In this document: in pieces, positions 5,677 through 29,511 of the stretch
Position numbering within the stretch: position 1 is the stretch's first letter
Layout of the letters: each line of letters begins with the position of its first letter
Assembly: GCF_010692555.1 (NCBI RefSeq)
Contig: NZ_JAAHHG010000062.1
Span: 1-33,421 of the forward strand
Origin: Okeania sp. SIO3B5
GTDB taxonomy: Bacteria; Cyanobacteriota; Cyanobacteriia; Cyanobacteriales; Microcoleaceae
DNA length: 33,421 nt
Reading direction: 5' to 3'
Notes under the pieces: generated by a model
The model's database searches: none
What the model was told of the DNA's origin: nothing
What the model saw: only the letters and a program-made list of their open reading frames with translations
Translations under genes and position numbers: made by a program

Positions 5677-6045
5677 CTACTGACTTACATAGTTTTCTAG
5701 GTTAACAGCAGCATTAAAGTCTCTGTCTACTGAGAAACCGCAGTTGCTACATTCGTATAATCTTACACTCAATAGCATTTTCTGTTGATGCCCACAGTGA
5801 GAACATATTTGAGAACTGGGATAAAATCTATCTGCTATCACTAAAGTGCTTCCATACCATTCACACTTATATGTAAGCTGACGCCTAAACTCATAAAAAC
5901 CACAATCTGCTATGGCACTTGCCAGTTTATGATTTTTGAGCATTCCACTTACATTGTCATACTTCTATCACTATGGTGCTGTGGTTTTTGGCTAACCATG
6001 TTGTGAGTTTATGTAATGCGTCTGCTCTGATCTCAGATACTGCTT

Positions 6046-6091: not shown

Positions 6092-6359
6092 GCTTTTTTG
6101 TGAGCCTTGGCTAGTCTTTTTACGGCCTTGGCTCTGTTTTTTGAACCTAGCTCTTTTTTCTTGACACGGCGTTGGTAACGAGTTAATCGTTTTTTTGCTT
6201 GTTTGTAGGCTTTGATGTTAGCATACTTTGTTCCATCACTACAAGTTGCTAGAGTATTTATACCAACATCTACACCGATAACACCTCGTTTTTTAGGGGT
6301 AGGTTTTGGCTCACATTCATACTTAAAACTTATGTACCAATTATCTGCTTTTTTTGTTA

Positions 6360-6424
6360 GCGTTTGCGCAGCATTCCGATAGGAAAGCTCCTCTGTTTGC
6401 GTAGCATTCCGCAGGAAAAGAGGC
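6360..6424. repeat. Two G-type hairpins inside tnpB
   Basis: Two imperfect copies of the GTTTGCGCAGCATTCCG...AGGAAA unit occur here, also found at about 621-642, 2459-2483, 3539-3566 and 3584-3609. They create the terminal nonsense residues of the N-terminal tnpB fragment. Confidence 0.7.
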
Positions 6425-6946
6425 TATCCTGACATTTTTTACTGGTACTGAGGGTAAGATTTCATAAGTTTTTACTATTCCTATTCTTGGTAGTTTGATA
6501 TAGTTTCCTTTCAGAATTTTAATACTTCCTTCTAAATAGAAACTATCTTTTTTCCCTTTTTTCTTAAAGGCCGGAAATCCACGTTTAGGAATAGTTAAAA
6601 AGTTTTTAAATGCCCTCTCTAAATCTCTTAAGGCTTCTTGAGGGGCACACTTTGATACTTCATAGTACCAGGGATTTTCGCTTTTTACTTCCCTCACCAA
6701 ACGCTTATGTAAAGTGATAGCACTCAGTCGTTTCTTGTTTGATTCATATTCAGTAATGCAAGTTGCTAATCCCCAGTTATAAGCATGACGGGCTACACCT
6801 GCGTGTTTGGCAAGTATAGTTTTTTGGTAATTGTTAACTTTTAATTTGGTCTTGATTGATTGCATTTGAATTGGTAGGCCATGAAAAAAAGTCTTTGATA
6901 ATTATAGAATAAACTAATAGCTGCGCAACATGAAAAGCAAAGCGTA

Positions 6947-15957: not shown

Positions 15958-16035
15958 GAGGGAGTAGGGAGTAGGGAGTAGGGAGTAGGGAATAGGGAGT
16001 AGAGAGTAGGGGGAAATAATTTATCTCAACGTTGG
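15958..16035. repeat. GGGAGTA heptamer tract abutting a stop codon
   Basis: About seven GGGAGTA units (with GGGAATA and AGAGTAG variants) begin within 2 nt of the hydrolase TAA stop. The sequence then resembles the interior of a family-C element. Confidence 0.75.
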
Positions 16036-16402
16036 TTGAAGACCCGCGCTCTCCCGCAGGGGAGCGGAGAGATGGGAAAACCAATCAATAAGAGCGGTTT
16101 TGCAGATAATCTGTTAACATACAAATATTGCTCAGGCCAAAAATCAAGGTGCGCGATTACTGTAACTGTTCAATCAAGTCGCCGAGGGGCACGCCTCCTC
16201 CGGAGGAGCTGCGCTAACGGAGAAGTTAAACGGACACGGAGGAAGTGTTAGACTGGCAAAGCCCAGCATTTTCCAGCGAGGTGTCAACCCGCCCTGAATC
16301 TTTCAGTGTAGGGGCGATTCGCGAATCGCCCCTACAGTCTGTTTGATTGATGGATGGGAATCGGTGCGCTGTCTCGTAGAGCAGCGTCGGGAGGATGTCA
16401 AG
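16036..16402. repeat. Family-L-like element (diverged), containing a 30 bp perfect palindrome
   Basis: Begins with GACCCGCGCTCTCCCG and GGGGAGCG, and ends CGTCGGGAGGATGTCAAG. Its ends correspond to those of the L copies at 16605-16877 and 22716-23004, while the interior is different. It holds a GC-rich hairpin (CCTCCTCCGGAGGAG, about 16194-16208) and the palindrome at 16307-16336. A 71-codon frame here is not credible as a gene. Confidence 0.5.
16307..16336. repeat. 30 bp perfect palindrome
   Basis: The half-site TGTAGGGGCGATTCG is followed directly by its reverse complement, with no loop. GC-rich palindromes of this kind are dispersed in cyanobacterial genomes. As RNA it would form a strong hairpin, so it could act as a terminator, though no T-run follows. 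Confidence 0.8.
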
Positions 16403-16438
16403 AATAAGAGTACGATAATTGATTTGATTTTTTATTAT

Positions 16439-16573
16439 TGAAGATGTCTAGAAAATAGGGAACAGGGAATAGGGGACAGGGAACCCACCCCTATCCCCTC
16501 CCAGGAGGGGAGGGGAATAATTGACAATTTATGGATAAGAATTTATTTTATTTTTAATTTCCGGATATGTCTA
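16439..16573. mobile_element. Family-C element with AGGGAAC tract and one J module
   Basis: The right end is CCGGATATGTCTA. The left end is merged with the end of another C-like fragment (GAAGATGTCTAG). A GGGAACA tract is interrupted by a J module at about 16481-16517, followed by the AATTGACAATTTATGG-type body shared with 29512-29622. Confidence 0.55.
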
Positions 16574-16604
16574 GTAGTAATTAAGTTTGATTCAAGAATA
16601 ATTT

Positions 16605-16877
16605 TAACTTCCCTGGCGGGAAGTCCCGCGCTCTCCCGTTGGCGGAGGATGGTGGCGGCAGCTATTAGGGGAGCGTCGTATGAGAAAGCCAGGGCCAAGA
16701 GTCGGATACCTCCACAAATAAAACCTTTCTATACCCTTGACAAGCTAGGAGCTATGCATGTTATTATCAACGTCAATACAGGGGGAGGACATCACCTCTG
16801 TCAAAACAGTGGTCATTTTTTTCATGACTGAAGAATCCCGCGTTGTTGCGCATAGCGCAACGTCGGGAGTATGTCAA
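16605..16877. mobile_element. Family-L element (TnpB-less IS200/IS605-like), with K unit inserted
   Basis: Left part ACTTCCCTGGCGGGAAGTCC, then CGCGCTCTCCC...GGGGAGCGTCGTATG. Right part GACTGAAGAATCCCGCG, a hairpin GTTGCG-CATAG-CGCAAC (about 16849-16865) and GGGAGTATGTCAA. The inverted copy at 22716-23004 has the same ends plus CAGGGGGAGGACATCACCTC, but a different interior. K (16637-16665) is an extra insertion. Hairpin ends with no transposase suggest an element mobilised in trans. Confidence 0.6.
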
Positions 16878-16891
16878 GTTTCTTGATGCTT

Positions 16892-16955: not shown

Positions 16956-16986
16956 GTAGGCGTTGATAGTTAATAATTTCTATAAT

Positions 16987-17290
16987 TACCGAAAAGCAAC
17001 GTTGAAAGCCCCCGTGTTTTAACCGGGGGATGAAAACAAGCGAGTCGTTTAGACTAGACAACTTTAGTTGTCCTGTGCTATTTTCTGGATATACAAACGT
17101 TTAGACAAAAGTAAGCAGCAAAGCATGGTTTAGACGCTATGCCGACTGTGTAGGGGCACCGCGGAAATTGTCCCCAAAGAGTATATCTTTGGTCAGCGCT
17201 CGAAAAAAACGAAGCAACATGGATTTATTGGTGTTGCGTAGTATCAACTTAGAATCCCCTCGGCAAAAGCTGTGGGGAGTAGTTAATTCA
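16987..17290 (+). ncRNA. Structured noncoding element, copy 1 (candidate TnpB guide-RNA/right-end relic)
   Basis: About 300 bp with no open frame, conserved almost base for base at 18387-18952. Hairpins visible: CCCCCGTGTTTTAACCGGGGG (17009-17029), GACAACTTTAGTTGTC (about 17056-17071), and near the end CCCCTCGGC with GCTGTGGGG (about 17255-17278). The modular layout, with a terminal hairpin near a TCAA-like end, resembles the 3' region of TnpB elements that encodes the guide RNA, but no tnpB is attached. Strand is inferred by analogy. It could instead be another class of structured RNA or a plain repeat. Confidence 0.45.
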
Positions 17291-17337
17291 AGACTTTAAT
17301 CTCTCCCACTCCCCCACTCCCCCACTCCCCTACTCCC

Positions 17338-18132
17338 CTACTCTCCTGCTAACTGTGCTTTTGCATTTTGCCACATTTGTTCAAACTCCGCCAAAGTATA
17401 CTCAGAAAGAGGGCGGTTGCACATTTTTTCTACTAAAGCAAACCGTTTCAAAAATCGATGATTAGTTCCTTGTAAAGCTTGTTCTGGATTTAAATCATAC
17501 CACCTTGCTAATTGCACTAAAACAAATAAAATATCTCCCATTTCTGCTTGTTGATGCTCCTTATCTTCAGATTTTAAAGCCTCTTCAAACTCCCCAACTT
17601 CTTCGTGGAATTTTTCCCAAACTTCTTCAATATTTTCCCATTCAAAACCAATAGCAGCAGCTTTTTTTGAAATTTTCGTTGCTGCCATAAGTGGAGGTAA
17701 CTGTCGAGCATATCGACCGAGTTTTGTACTCAATAAATCATTAGTTTCTCCTTTTTCTGCTGCTTTGATTTTTTCCCAATTTTGCTTAACTTCTTCTGTA
17801 CTATTTACTTTCACATCTCCAAATACATGAGGATGTCTTCTAATCATTTTTTTATTAATACTTTGAGCAACTTCAGCTAAAGTAAAATCATTGGCTTCGC
17901 TAGCTACTTGTGCTTGCAAAACTACCTGTAATAATAAATCTCCTAATTCATCAATTACTGCTTCTTTATCTCCGCTTTTTATTGCATCAACTGCTTCATA
18001 AGCTTCTTCAATAATATAAGGAGTTAAACTTTCTGGAGTTTGAGCTAAGTCCCACGGACAACCACCATCTGGAGAACGTAATTTGCCTACTATTTCTATT
18101 AGTTCTTGTAATGCAGTTAATGTTGAATCCAT
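17338..18132 (-). CDS. mazG: Nucleoside triphosphate pyrophosphohydrolase MazG
   Basis: 264 aa all-alpha NTP pyrophosphatase that removes non-canonical or excess NTPs. The N-terminal domain shows GGCPWDLAQTPESL and the metal-binding helices IIEEAYEAVDAI and IDELGDLLLQVV, the EExxE/ExxD pattern. RRHPHVFGD and the linker lead to the second MazG domain with the same pattern (EEVGEFEEAL, EMGDILFVLVQLARW). Length and two-domain form are those of full MazG. ATG 18132 is preferred over an upstream in-frame TTG at 18144; no Shine-Dalgarno is seen. The stop codon lies in a CACTCCCC octamer tract (about 17300-17346). The gene is bracketed by direct copies of a ~300 bp noncoding element. Confidence 0.95.
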   Translation of the reverse strand: MDSTLTALQELIEIVGKLRSPDGGCPWDLAQTPESLTPYIIEEAYEAVDAIKSGDKEAVIDELGDLLLQVVLQAQVASEANDFTLAEVAQSINKKMIRRHPHVFGDVKVNSTEEVKQNWEKIKAAEKGETNDLLSTKLGRYARQLPPLMAATKISKKAAAIGFEWENIEEVWEKFHEEVGEFEEALKSEDKEHQQAEMGDILFVLVQLARWYDLNPEQALQGTNHRFLKRFALVEKMCNRPLSEYTLAEFEQMWQNAKAQLAGE

Positions 18133-18386
18133 ATTAGATCGCAAAATAGTTTAATTTTAATATGAAATAAGTAAAGTCCTAATTTATGTTCACCATATCA
18201 TCTATAAAGCAGACTGCCAAAATCATTCCTACAATATTTTTCCCTACGGTAATTTTTTTTGTTAAGCTGGGGAAAAAACAGTATTTATCGCTAATTAAGA
18301 GGGTTTTATCTAGCAGCCATCTTTATGATTTTAAATATTCTGGAAAAAGGCGACCTGGATCGAGAACTTAAAACTGTTTATTTTCT

Positions 18387-18952
18387 TACCGAAAAGCGAC
18401 GTTGAAAACCCCCGTGTTTTAACCTATCCCTTATAAGGAACTCCTGAAAACCTTGTGTGGAGCAGGGGAGTAGGGGACCCACCCCTTGCCCCTACCCCTC
18501 CCAGGAGGGGAAAAAGGAGAAGGGAGAAAGAATCATAGTAGATAGGAAAAACTACTTAAGTTATCAAAAAAAATCTACTTTTTAATATACTTTTTCTCTG
18601 GCAAAAATCTTTGAAATGCTAGTACATAACTTGTCTATTTTGTCAAGTTTTATGTTAAGAAAGATGTTTATAAAGCATAGGTGTTTTAACCGGGGGATGA
18701 AAACAAGCGAGTCGTTTAGACTAGACAACTTTAGTTGTCCTGTGCTATTACCCGGATATACAAACGTTTAGACAAAAGTAAGCAGCAAAGCATGGTTTAG
18801 ACGCTATGCCGACTGTGTAGGGGCACCGCGGAAATTGTCCCCAAAGAGTATATCTTTGGTCAGCGCTCGAAAAAACGAAGCAACATGGATTTATCGGTGT
18901 TGCGTAGTATCAACTTAGAATCCCCTCGGCAATAGCTGCGGGGAGTAGTCAA
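18387..18952 (+). ncRNA. Structured noncoding element, copy 2, interrupted by a 256 bp insertion
   Basis: Matches 16987-17290 with few differences, apart from an insertion in the loop of the first hairpin. The terminal hairpin reads CCCCTCGGC...GCTGCGGGG. It differs from copy 1 at one loop base and at a T/C opposite T, so pairing is kept. The end GGGAGTAGTCAA is a plausible IS200/IS605-type right cleavage context. Function as guide RNA is inferred only. Confidence 0.45.
18425..18680. mobile_element. 256 bp MITE-like insertion with 11-bp target duplication
   Basis: Flanked by GTGTTTTAACC on both sides (18414-18424 and 18681-18691), which is single in the intact copy at 16987-17290. The ends TATCCCTTATAAGG and (inverted) TATGCTTTATAAAC match at 10 of 14 positions. 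It contains a J module (about 18478-18511). No protein is encoded. Duplications of 10-12 bp are typical of IS4-type transposases. Confidence 0.7.
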
Positions 18953-19555
18953 CTAAACCTACAATAATAGATTTACCATAATATTAAGTTAGGTAGGTAC
19001 GAAAAAAACTAATTATGTAACAAAAAGTAAAGTAACTCTGAAACCTCTTCCCTTCTGTCCTCTGCCTCCTGCCTGAATCTAACTATAAATTTTAACGCCT
19101 ACCTAACTTACAACTGTATAAAGGATGACTATCTATCAACTGGCGTGCAATAGACATCTCCAATAATAAAAAATAAAATAAACTATCGTACAGAAATTAT
19201 CAATTCTTACCCTCCACGATCGGGGGAGGGGCGAGGGGTGGGTTCCCTACTCCCTACTCCCTACTCCCTCTTTTCTGGATATATCTAAATGGAATAATTA
19301 AACCTTTTTTATTCGCGATGCAAGATCTAGACATATAGGCCACATAAATCTATAGTTATGAATTTTACATAAAACAAACAAATGTATTAATAAATAAAAT
19401 TAAGCAATTTTTATCATTTTTGATGATTTTCTGAGGATTGTGCTACAAAGGTTAAAGATAGTCATGATAATATATTCCAGATGTGCAAGCAAACTATCAG
19501 GAATATTTTAATAATTCGTATCTATTGATACAAAAGTACTAGGAATTCCCTTAAT
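18953..19555. other. Noncoding region with a family-C element
   Basis: TTAGGTAGGTACG at about 18987 and CTACCTAACTTA at about 19098 form an inverted repeat (TAAG/TTAG...GTAGG), possibly another small element. 19151-19287 is a family-C copy (TAGACATCTCC / GGATATATCTA) with a J module and CCCTACT heptamers. 19288-19555 is AT-rich leader sequence before the histidine kinase, with AGGA 12-15 nt before its ATG. Confidence 0.5.
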
Positions 19556-22715: not shown

Positions 22716-23004
22716 TTGACATACTCCCGACGTTGCGCTAACGCGACATGACGAACGCGGGATTCTTCAGTCAGAAAAAAAAGCTGACTGCTGTTTATAC
22801 AGAGGTGATGTCCTCCCCCTGTGTTTAGAACAATCATAATCTATTTATTTGTAATTGTCAATAGCTATAAATGTATAGCATACAATATGCTACAAATACT
22901 ACAAAAAGGGGAAATCCCCGATGAACAACACAGATAACGCCCGGCTTTCCCATACGACGCTCCCCTCCGGGAGAGCGCGGGACTTCCTGCCGGGGGAGTT
23001 AAAA
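22716..23004. mobile_element. Family-L element (TnpB-less IS200/IS605-like), inverted relative to 16605-16877
   Basis: TTGACATACTCCCGACG with a GTTGCGCTAACGCGAC hairpin, then GCGGGATTCTTCAGTC, ACAGAGGTGATGTCCTCC and, at the far end, GGCTTTCCCATACGACGC, TCCCCTCCGGGAG, GCGCGGGACTTCCTGCC. Only the terminal ~60-80 bp at each side are shared with the other copy; the AT-rich interior is unrelated. Confidence 0.6.
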
Positions 23005-23170
23005 GTAACTAAAGTGTCTCTTGGGGAGTAGCTATGCTTTCGAGGTAAAATAGCTAGATGTCGTTTCTACAAAAGTTATACCGGGCGACAGTCGCTAACA
23101 TGAGGAAACCTCCTCTCAATAGACATTTGATAGCTATTGCTGTTGATAACAGGCTTTAATATTTTCTCTG
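23005..23170. other. Short noncoding gap before the signalling operon's 3' end
   Basis: No gene or clear hairpin was found. This is the downstream side of the minus-strand operon, and no convincing intrinsic terminator is visible. Confidence 0.4.
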
Positions 23171-27637: not shown

Positions 27638-28270
27638 CTAGTCAAATTGTTGTTCAATTTTCTCAATTTTTGATTCAATTTCATCAAGTTCCCTCTGGGT
27701 TTGTTCTATATCTGCATCTCGCTGAAGTTGCACAATAGGATTAACTTCAGTAATACGACTACTACGTAACATAAAGATTTTCTTTCTTAAGTCATCGTAA
27801 TGCACTTGCAATTCACTTAATTCTTGCTCTAAGCGACAACGTTTACCAAATGTCAAACGATTGGAGGGACGTTTAGAGCTAATCTCCATTTGAACTAATT
27901 TACCTAATTCAGTCCAAGCTTCCCTTAAGACTTTAGTAGAAATCAGAAAAGCAGCCTTCGTATTTTCTCTTTTTGTCTCTGCTGCTACTGCCATACCCAC
28001 TACTCCAGCTAATTGCTCATCCCACACAGGCGCACCACTAAATCCTTTCTCCACTTGATAACCAGATACTTTGACATCTTCTATCTGTAGCCAGTTTTTT
28101 CCAGTCAAATCTCGTAATATCCCAGATACCCAAATCCCATCATTATGACCTTTGGGAAAACCAAAAATTCTGATTGGATGCTGCTCTATAAAACTGATAC
28201 AAAGAGTCACATAACGTGACAAATTGATGTTTACTTCCTGCTTCCACTGAGGCCGTCGGCGGTTACTCAT
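27638..28270 (-). pseudogene. 5'-truncated trypsin-like peptidase with C-terminal helical adaptor (EAD-like)
   Basis: 210 codons. From about residue 29 the sequence is the C-terminal lobe of a trypsin-like peptidase of the conflict-system type: IRIFGFPKGHNDGIWVSGIL, WLQIEDVKVSGYQ, then the nucleophile motif KGFSGAPVWDE (Ser in GFSGAP) and GVVGMAVAAE. The lobe with the catalytic His and Asp is absent. Residues about 140-210 are a helical hairpin (LEQELSELQVHYDDLRKKI...IEQTQRELDEIESKIEKIE) matching the N-terminus of the next gene. The first ~28 codons come from the right end of the TnpB element inserted in front, and the ATG overlaps the tnpB stop as ATGA. The peptidase cannot be active by itself; expression would depend on tnpB transcription. 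Confidence 0.82.
28190..28266 (-). other. Right end of the intact TnpB element (probable guide-RNA 3' region)
   Basis: Downstream of the tnpB stop, the GTCAC-ATAAC-GTGAC hairpin (28206-28220) is placed like the right-end hairpin of IS200/IS605 elements. The peptidase-like sequence starts just beyond (about 28186). In this family the guide RNA covers the tnpB 3' end and right end, and its guide part is the flanking host DNA, here the peptidase gene. The exact border was not resolved. Confidence 0.5.
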
Positions 28271-29352
28271 CCACAGGCATTCACGGTCGAACCGACCGCA
28301 TCTCTCAAATTAATACTGGCGTTTAAATCTCTGTCTATTGACAAGCCACATTCTGGACAGTCATAAGTCCTTACATTTAAGGGCATATCTTGAACATGAC
28401 CACAATTCGAGCAAGTTTTTGATGATGGAAAAAACCTATCAACTATTACTAACTCAGAACCGTACCACTGTGTTTTATATTCTAGTTGACGCCTGAATTC
28501 ATAAAATCCTTGGTCTGCTATTGATTTCGCTAGTTTACGGTTAGCTAACATTCCACTAACGTTTAAATCTTCTATGACAATGGTGCCGTGGTTTTTGGCT
28601 AAGTATGTTGTCAATTTATGAAGTGTGTCTTTACGGATGTTAGCTATCTTTCTATGTAGCTTGGCAATTTTGAGTTGTATTTTTCGCCAATTAGCTGAAC
28701 CAATTTCTTTATTCCGGTTTAGATATTGTAGTTGAGAAAGTTTGGCTTCAAACCGGCGATATGACTTGACACTTTCAAAGACTTTTCCATCACTTAAAGT
28801 TGCTAATGTTTTAATGCCTAAATCTACACCTACAACTTCAGTAGTTTTTGGTGTTGGATCAGGAGTAAATTCATAACCCAAACTTAAGTACCAATCACCT
28901 GCGTGTCTACTAATAGTTATTTTTTGAGTAGTTGCTTCAATTGGTTCATAGGTTTTGACAATACCAATAAAAGGTAATTTATGATTCCATCCATTTAATT
29001 CTATTGGTTTTCCAGAATTATCAATTGTAAATGAATCAGACCTACCTTTCTTCTTAAATTTTGGGTATTTTCCTAATCCTTTAAAGAACCTTTTGAATGC
29101 TTCACCTAAGTTGATGAAAGCATATTGGTAAACCTTAGATGACAAGTTTTTCATCCAAGAATATAAAGGCTTTGTGTGGTTAGTAAAAACCTCTCTGAGC
29201 TTACGAATATTTGGCTTGTAACCATCAAGATATGCAGCATTCCATAAACTTAAACCCCAGTTATAAACCCATCTTGAATAACCTGCGTGTTGAGCCAAGA
29301 GGGTTTTCTGCTGGTTATTTAGTTTGAGCTTTGTACGAATTGACTTGTACAT
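28267..29352 (-). CDS. tnpB: TnpB, IS200/IS605-type RNA-guided endonuclease (intact)
   Basis: 361 aa from ATG 29352 (MYKSIRTKLKLNNQQKTLLAQHAG, the usual TnpB start); an in-frame ATG at 29391 would add 13 untypical residues. RuvC-like catalytic residues are all present: VVGVDLGIKTLA (RuvC-I Asp), TIVIEDLNVSGM (RuvC-II Glu), SIDRDLNASINL (RuvC-III Asp). A zinc ribbon lies between the last two (CSNCGH...CPECG). It cuts DNA next to a short target-adjacent motif, using RNA from the element's own right end, and promotes retention of the transposon. No tnpA is present, so mobility would need a Y1 transposase in trans. It sits in the 5' part of the peptidase gene. It is related to the decayed copy at 5677-6865. 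Confidence 0.93.
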   Translation of the reverse strand: MYKSIRTKLKLNNQQKTLLAQHAGYSRWVYNWGLSLWNAAYLDGYKPNIRKLREVFTNHTKPLYSWMKNLSSKVYQYAFINLGEAFKRFFKGLGKYPKFKKKGRSDSFTIDNSGKPIELNGWNHKLPFIGIVKTYEPIEATTQKITISRHAGDWYLSLGYEFTPDPTPKTTEVVGVDLGIKTLATLSDGKVFESVKSYRRFEAKLSQLQYLNRNKEIGSANWRKIQLKIAKLHRKIANIRKDTLHKLTTYLAKNHGTIVIEDLNVSGMLANRKLAKSIADQGFYEFRRQLEYKTQWYGSELVIVDRFFPSSKTCSNCGHVQDMPLNVRTYDCPECGLSIDRDLNASINLRDAVGSTVNACG

Positions 29353-29511
29353 ATTTTTAGCTCTTTTTTGAGTTGACGACTGTATTTTCAATGGTCAGAT
29401 ATAACTAGCGTATTATACTGCTTTATAACGTTAGTTGTCAACTAAGTCAAAGCTCCATCGACTATTATAGTTTGGTTACTATCTATTTTATACCAACGTT
29501 ATCATCATCAT
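29353..29511 (-). other. Left-end side of the TnpB element
   Basis: TTAGTTG-T-CAACTAA (29431-29445) is a 7-bp stem inverted repeat, suitable as the left-end hairpin of an IS200/IS605 element. No peptidase-like sequence is found beyond it, so the missing 5' half of the peptidase gene is not simply displaced to this side. Confidence 0.45.

Follow-up and report, generated by a model that had tools for sequence, protein, structure and literature searches.

Near-identical noncoding sequences in direct orientation lie on both sides of mazG (17338-18144, minus strand; Pfam MazG, 1.9e-38) in Okeania sp. SIO3B5, and the question raised by this locus is what kind of element they represent, where it came from, and what its hairpins are for. 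A repeat search of the window (the whole stretch of 33,421 nucleotides that was analyzed) returned direct repeats of 204 nt (97%), 88 nt (93%), and, for the left piece, 48 nt (88%), with starts 1,400 to 1,667 nt apart; in a search of the organism's own genome, copy 2 matched copy 1 over its right-hand 272 nt at 97% and over its left 39 nt at 95%. With limits set from an alignment of 29 full copies together with the sequence itself, copy 1 occupies positions 16990-17286 and copy 2 occupies positions 18390-18952, both on the plus strand. The original prediction of a duplicated element bracketing mazG, with copy 2 split by an insertion and copy 1 as the unsplit form, was thus borne out. Several stable hairpins had also been predicted, and the right parts of both copies do fold better than most shuffled sequences (copy 1, z = -2.15, 6 of 200 shuffles as good; copy 2, z = -3.09, 1 of 200). 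The one difference between the terminal hairpins leaves the pairing undisturbed, as had been claimed, but it falls in an internal mismatch and the loop and is not a compensatory change.

That two similar copies lie within 1.4 kb of each other in the same orientation might suggest a local segmental duplication around mazG. This is contradicted by their differing flanks, by the TTAC that each copy has to its own left (16986-16989 for copy 1 and 18386-18389 for copy 2, plus strand), and by their being two of about 40 dispersed copies, so that the probability left to a segmental duplication is negligible. In the 11.06-Mb genome (789 contigs), 49 matches were merged by hand count to at least 40 places, a lower bound because scoring covered the best 40 of 328 candidates; three of the 40 places are at contig ends, and two of these are possibly one copy. 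The alignment contains the 29 full copies and leaves out the three at contig ends and the rest, which are split or truncated. The left edge is TTAC in all 29 aligned copies and the right edge is TCAA in 27, with unrelated flanks; copy 1 of the window (17283-17286, plus strand) and one other copy (L014) have a right edge mutated to TTAA, and copy 2 has TCAA intact (18949-18952, plus strand). Across the alignment, palindromes occur near both ends and terminal inverted repeats are absent. On the plus strand of copy 1, sequence inspection and a motif scan place a left-end guide, AAAG, at 17005-17008 and a left hairpin, CCCCCG/CGGGGG, at 17009-17014 with 17024-17029, and the sequence shows a right-end guide, GAAT, at 17252-17255 followed by the right-end hairpin at 17256-17277. 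Variable blocks are found in many combinations among the 29 aligned copies, as if segments had been exchanged between copies.

For six copies, we joined the two flanks and looked for the resulting sequence in four same-genus genomes. For one copy (L013), an empty site with a single TTAC was found in two of the four (G001 and G003), and in the other two (G002 and G004) the match ends at TTAC. A second copy (L024) lies inside another repeat, and single-TTAC empty sites were present in the six loci inspected (L317-L322), with 90 to 93 continuous nucleotides, of which the right flank in common is only 9 nt. The single-TTAC empty sites therefore indicate insertion 3' of TTAC without duplication. 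The joined flanks of L016 gave only 72 to 73% matches across the join, and those of L025 and L023 gave no match across the join among the matches listed. The flanks of a further copy (L019) are about 547 bp apart in a relative (L329, G003:C1), each at TTAC, and this insertion seems to have been coupled to a deletion. At mazG itself, the gene was found in all four same-genus genomes searched, with both element copies absent within 1.5 kb of it; a base-level empty site was not recoverable, as the flanks are too diverged in these four genomes. Loss of mazG through recombination between the two direct copies is geometrically possible.

The window holds other repeats as well. Inverted, 78 to 90% complementary pieces of another repeat lie on either side of the mazG region (16410-16573 and 19151-19282). 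A repeat with an IS605-like plan occupies 16020-16403 and has at least 53 matches in its own genome (best 40 candidates scored), and a third family, whose right end terminates in GTCAA, occupies 16603-16880, has at least 60 matches there (best 40 candidates scored), and has one more window copy at 22716-23007 (minus strand).

The origin of the element can be read from relatives in which the same ends enclose tnpB. In the organism's own genome, a tnpB remnant (L034) continues straight into the element's right end. Twelve of the 38 relatives searched had matches (four of the 12 only short ones), and in G002 and others tnpB lies in the roughly 1.25 kb that separate the left end from the right end. 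At ten tnpB-bearing loci of related genomes, the left ends are 79 to 99% identical to the window's (six at 95 to 99%) and the right ends 79 to 86%. The window element is 301 nt including TTAC, versus 1,518 nt in one such relative (L162), and is missing parent positions 98-1344, so that 97 nt of left end are followed directly by the final ~180 nt (174 parent nt) of a tnpB element. In other deletion classes the missing part is about 132-1150 (L169-L171) or 293-1397 (L176). A TnpB with an open frame of 435 aa (L168) scored 3.6e-49, over the cutoff, against NCBIfam guided_TnpB and 7.6e-16 against Pfam OrfB_IS605. Its structural model is weak (mean pLDDT, 60.4), with Cas12f and TnpB structures as the best Foldseek matches and TM-scores of about 0.25 to 0.36 for most near-full-length matches, and we use it as support only; PDB sequence searches gave no matches. 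A divergent tnpA stands beside tnpB in 3 of 89 tnpB loci (L223, L246, and L248), all in more distant cyanobacterial relatives, and at L223 the right end is nearly identical to that of the window element and the left hairpin is of like plan. The element had been predicted to be the right-end or guide-RNA part of a TnpB element that had lost its protein gene; a protein-less remnant it is, since the same ends flank tnpB in related genomes, but not of the right end only, since both ends are kept.

We interpret the repeats as a non-autonomous IS200/IS605-type element of the PATE kind, produced by internal deletion of a TnpB-only element; with the proposed mobilization in trans and the proposed omegaRNA in trans included, we give this reading a probability of roughly 80%. 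The element keeps a hairpin-bearing left end, the 3' part of its parent, and the IS608-type signals TTAC, TCAA, AAAG, and GAAT. It has dispersed to about 40 genomic places without duplicating its target, and its right part is a member of an RNA family whose pairing covaries. Several observations count against this reading. In the elements whose left ends are most similar to the window's (L161-L164 and L167), tnpB is interrupted, and the elements with an open tnpB have left ends at 79% (L168) and 85% (L125, in the own genome, open with an in-frame insertion). Two tnpB-bearing elements (L165 and L166) are preceded by TTGAC, not TTAC. Moreover, the left arm is unpaired in 14 of the 29 aligned copies, reading CAAGC in 11 (L005, L008, L010, L011, L021, L023-L025, and L027-L029) and CATAG or TATAG in 3 (L018, L022, and L035), with a CCCCC-type arm in the other 15. 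All 14 are dispersed though unable to pair, which is not easily explained by an IS608-like mechanism.

The RNA structure of the kept 3' part was analyzed with 62 right ends (set A1) hand-picked among the hits (178 hits, reduced to 144 distinct). In copy 1 the omegaRNA-type region, comprising the 3' end of the tnpB reading frame and the right end, was placed at 17105-17286 (plus strand) by homology to the 3' end of tnpB and by covariation, and in copy 2 at 18772-18952 (plus strand) by right-end matches and folding. RNAalifold predicted 23 pairs from the 62 sequences, 17 of them with double changes. With one hairpin added, the structure has 28 pairs, of whose cells 96.5% are paired, and double changes occur in 19 of the 28 versus a shuffled mean of 10.9; the covariation score was 0.310 versus 0.137 for shuffled and 0.034 to 0.100 for slid alignments. 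None of the five covariation measures was reached by any of 500 shuffles, with the caveat that the structure was partly derived from the same alignment and that the sequences are related. A putative 5' helix of the RNA, several pairs of which are not formed in most sequences, was excluded from the structure. As for what might have refuted the original prediction, tnpB lies between the same ends and compensation is strong across relatives. No matching Rfam family was found, either at the gathering score for the window and three tnpB-bearing loci or at E values up to 10 for 18350-19000. Identity with a HEARO/IscB RNA or with a group II intron was rejected on the grounds of the tnpB adjacency. 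Covarying structure is also what would be expected if the repeats were a stand-alone gene for a noncoding RNA, or a regulatory repeat, and no transposon; the exact-edged dispersal, the empty sites, and the tnpB-bearing elements with the same ends contradict this, and we consider it very improbable.

A more serious alternative to a functional RNA is that the element is a plain PATE, in which only the DNA ends matter, for TnpA, and the omegaRNA part is a passive, unused leftover; we put its chances just short of even. Some PATEs have been described as IS605-type elements reduced to fused ends, in the part of PMC3119063 used here, and since one internal deletion type is found in all 29 aligned copies, a single founder could explain which parts were kept. 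On the other hand, 174 parent nucleotides are kept at the 3' end, where the right hairpin, guide, and cleavage site need about 35, and the deletion class L169-L171 keeps about 330 to 368 nt, though L176 keeps only 121 nt. Sequence diversity bears on the same point. In 19 protein-less copies, diversity was 0.030 at 56 paired sites versus 0.159 at 121 unpaired sites, a difference reached by 0 of 20,000 permutations of the site labels, which ignore linkage between sites; in all 29 copies, the values were 0.033 and 0.145. Diversity at the paired sites of the protein-less copies is thus low, four to five times below that of the unpaired sites, which a passive leftover would not lead one to expect. 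Right ends beside tnpB (n = 17) gave a smaller contrast, 0.065 versus 0.130, a loose comparison, as this set draws on several species (two not Okeania) and some of its genes are decayed. The tnpB tail frame is readable to a stop in only 7 of 27 protein-less copies (L026 and L006 were left out of the 29). In a wider set, the tail frame was intact in 29 of 66 sequences with tnpB upstream and in 14 of 58 without, counts to which we give no weight because the stop motif differs in distant relatives; the first of these figures shows that loss of the frame is common next to tnpB as well. What speaks for the plain PATE is the nature of the changes: among the 15 cells at paired sites that have changed in the 19 protein-less copies, 8 have lost their pairing, 6 retain it by a change on one side only, and 1 belongs to a double change. 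Because paired sites change little and yet about half of their changes are disruptive, selection on the RNA of the protein-less copies is indicated but not proven.

If the element is a deletion derivative that is served in trans, it would be moved as single-stranded DNA by a Y1 (HUH) TnpA encoded elsewhere. A Y1 tnpA with the element's ends was not found among the 20 Y1 loci of its own genome, which gave only chance matches of 12 to 15 nt, and a looser end-motif scan for an own tnpA gave mostly chance-like hits. Candidates for the TnpB are at hand: at least two tnpB genes of the element's clade are open in this genome, L278 (81% over residues 3-429) and L279 (85% over residues 4-435), and L125, with its in-frame insertion, is a third. 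All three retain the residues presumed to be catalytic (D, E, and D), at positions assigned by our own reading, and the clade seems to be without the usual zinc-finger segment; we infer that the PATE RNAs may be loaded by L278- or L279-type TnpB in trans. At least 150 hits of tnpB type came from the own genome, where 150 of the 615 candidates were scored, and by Pfam the window itself has a further tnpB gene (28267-29391, minus strand) and an apparent tnpB broken in two pieces (5677-5943 and 6341-6865, minus strand).

A transcript reading out of the right end would then yield an omegaRNA guided by the flanking ~16 nt, putatively 17287-17302 for copy 1 and 18953-18968 for copy 2 (both on the plus strand and by analogy with ISDra2, as presented in the portion of PMC8612924 drawn on here). 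This RNA could load TnpB made elsewhere in the genome, and the TnpB so supplied might cut the vacated TTAC site, whereby each copy would be helped to persist. Both window copies are probably now fixed in place, with their RNA parts whole, because the right cleavage site of copy 1 has become TTAA and the left hairpin of copy 2 has been split. Going further, the protein-less PATEs (~40 or more) may form a shared guide-RNA economy, each expressing an omegaRNA with its own flank as the guide, served by two or three TnpBs in trans, retained by RNA-guided cleavage, and with the scaffold under selection on the PATEs. We offer this tentatively and rate it well below even odds, having lowered our estimate slightly because of the 8 pair-breaking changes.

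The sequence splitting copy 2 is an element in its own right. The original prediction of a 256-bp insertion with an 11-bp duplication held as to insertion and duplication, but not as to sizes: with limits taken from the ends (CTAT...ATAG) of other genomic copies, the insert is 257 bp (18424-18680, plus strand) and the duplication is the 10-bp GTGTTTTAAC (18414-18423 and 18681-18690, plus strand), the discrepancy being one C that is countable either way. The insert does sit, as foreseen, in a hairpin loop, that of the left-end hairpin of copy 2. It is a member of a separate MITE family with a modal duplication of 9 bp. The genome contains 110 instances (56 + 54) of this family's end motif and 0 of its reversed control, and from 64 loci we drew 42 complete distinct insertions of 145 to 584 bp, a count that leaves out insert ends without a recognizable left end. 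These have terminal inverted repeats and a target duplication, with no transposase gene inside; the duplication is perfect in 30 of the 42 (9 bp in 21, 8 bp in 5, 10 bp in 3, and 11 bp in 1). At 38 of the 42 insertions the duplication is bordered immediately by CCC on the left and GGG on the right, versus 0.8% of 5,000 random positions, and a stem of at least 6 is possible at 27 of 42 sites, versus 10% of random positions. Six of the 42 lie in the left hairpin of this PATE family, in both orientations and with differing interiors, so the loop must have been struck more than once. The CATAG-type left arm of some PATE copies looks like the leftover of a MITE end. Among the open reading frames beside the ends at 59 loci, inspected by eye, no transposase of an autonomous partner was recognized. 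Another PATE copy (L039, G000:C371) contains a second, different small element with ends ATATCATGTCCGG. IS231A and the REP-targeting IS elements likewise prefer palindromic targets inside other repeats; the MITE resembles them in its preference for palindromes, and its target is a C-run, about 9 bp, and a G-run. Its preference for C-run/G-run palindromes, and hence for the PATE left-end hairpin, is a possible brake on the PATE.

PATEs as a kind are known; what this family adds is the scale, the RNA structure, and the specificity of the MITE, and the literature that we searched yielded no description of this cyanobacterial PATE family or its MITE. The family offers a natural high-copy case of TnpB guide-RNA scaffolds without the protein, in which tnpB-bearing relatives, deletion classes, and empty sites are all present, and so makes it testable whether TnpB serves non-autonomous relatives in trans and whether selection keeps the RNA of PATEs. 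Protein-less guide RNAs in many copies per genome have a precedent in the stand-alone omegaRNA loci of IscB, which have no nuclease gene. The Okeania PATEs are like these in being protein-less guide-RNA loci in many copies; IscB belongs to a different family of nucleases, and its RNA lies upstream of the gene.

Among the nearest counterparts are the PATEs of Haloquadratum walsbyi, which, according to the sections of PMC3119063 cited here, have no terminal inverted repeats, near-terminal palindromes, and no target duplication, are too short for a transposase, and in some cases come from IS605-type elements by core deletion. They are often struck by other small mobile elements, of which the SMR-A attackers cause no duplication (PMC3119063, same sections). 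The Okeania element shares the lack of terminal inverted repeats, the palindromes, the shortness, the absence of duplication, the core deletion, and the attack by small elements; unlike the PATEs described in that portion of PMC3119063, it keeps a covarying omegaRNA-type segment, its host is a cyanobacterium, and, in contrast to SMR-A, its attacker is a MITE with mostly 9-bp duplications that enters C-run/G-run palindromes. A PATE-like element of Halanaerobium hydrogeniformans has almost the same plan, with 28 nt of left end including a hairpin, the last 58 nt of tnpB, and the whole 160-nt right end, and is present there, from what the excerpt of PMC7290912 reports, in one copy versus about 40 here; the excerpt presents no analysis of an RNA. 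IS608 of Helicobacter pylori inserts 3' of TTAC, is cleaved at TTAC on the left and at TCAA on the right, and has the guides AAAG and GAAT, signals that the Okeania element has in common with it, whereas IS608 carries both tnpA and tnpB, in the account given in the relevant part of PMC5934647, and the Okeania element carries neither. Finally, the kept 3' part corresponds to the region that gives the guide RNA of ISDra2, whose reRNA of ~150 nt comes from the 3' end of tnpB and the right end and is guided by ~16 nt of flank, the target motif being the insertion site; as laid out in the same portion of PMC8612924, the ISDra2 RNA belongs to an element with its own tnpB and a TTGAT motif, whereas the Okeania element has no tnpB and uses TTAC.
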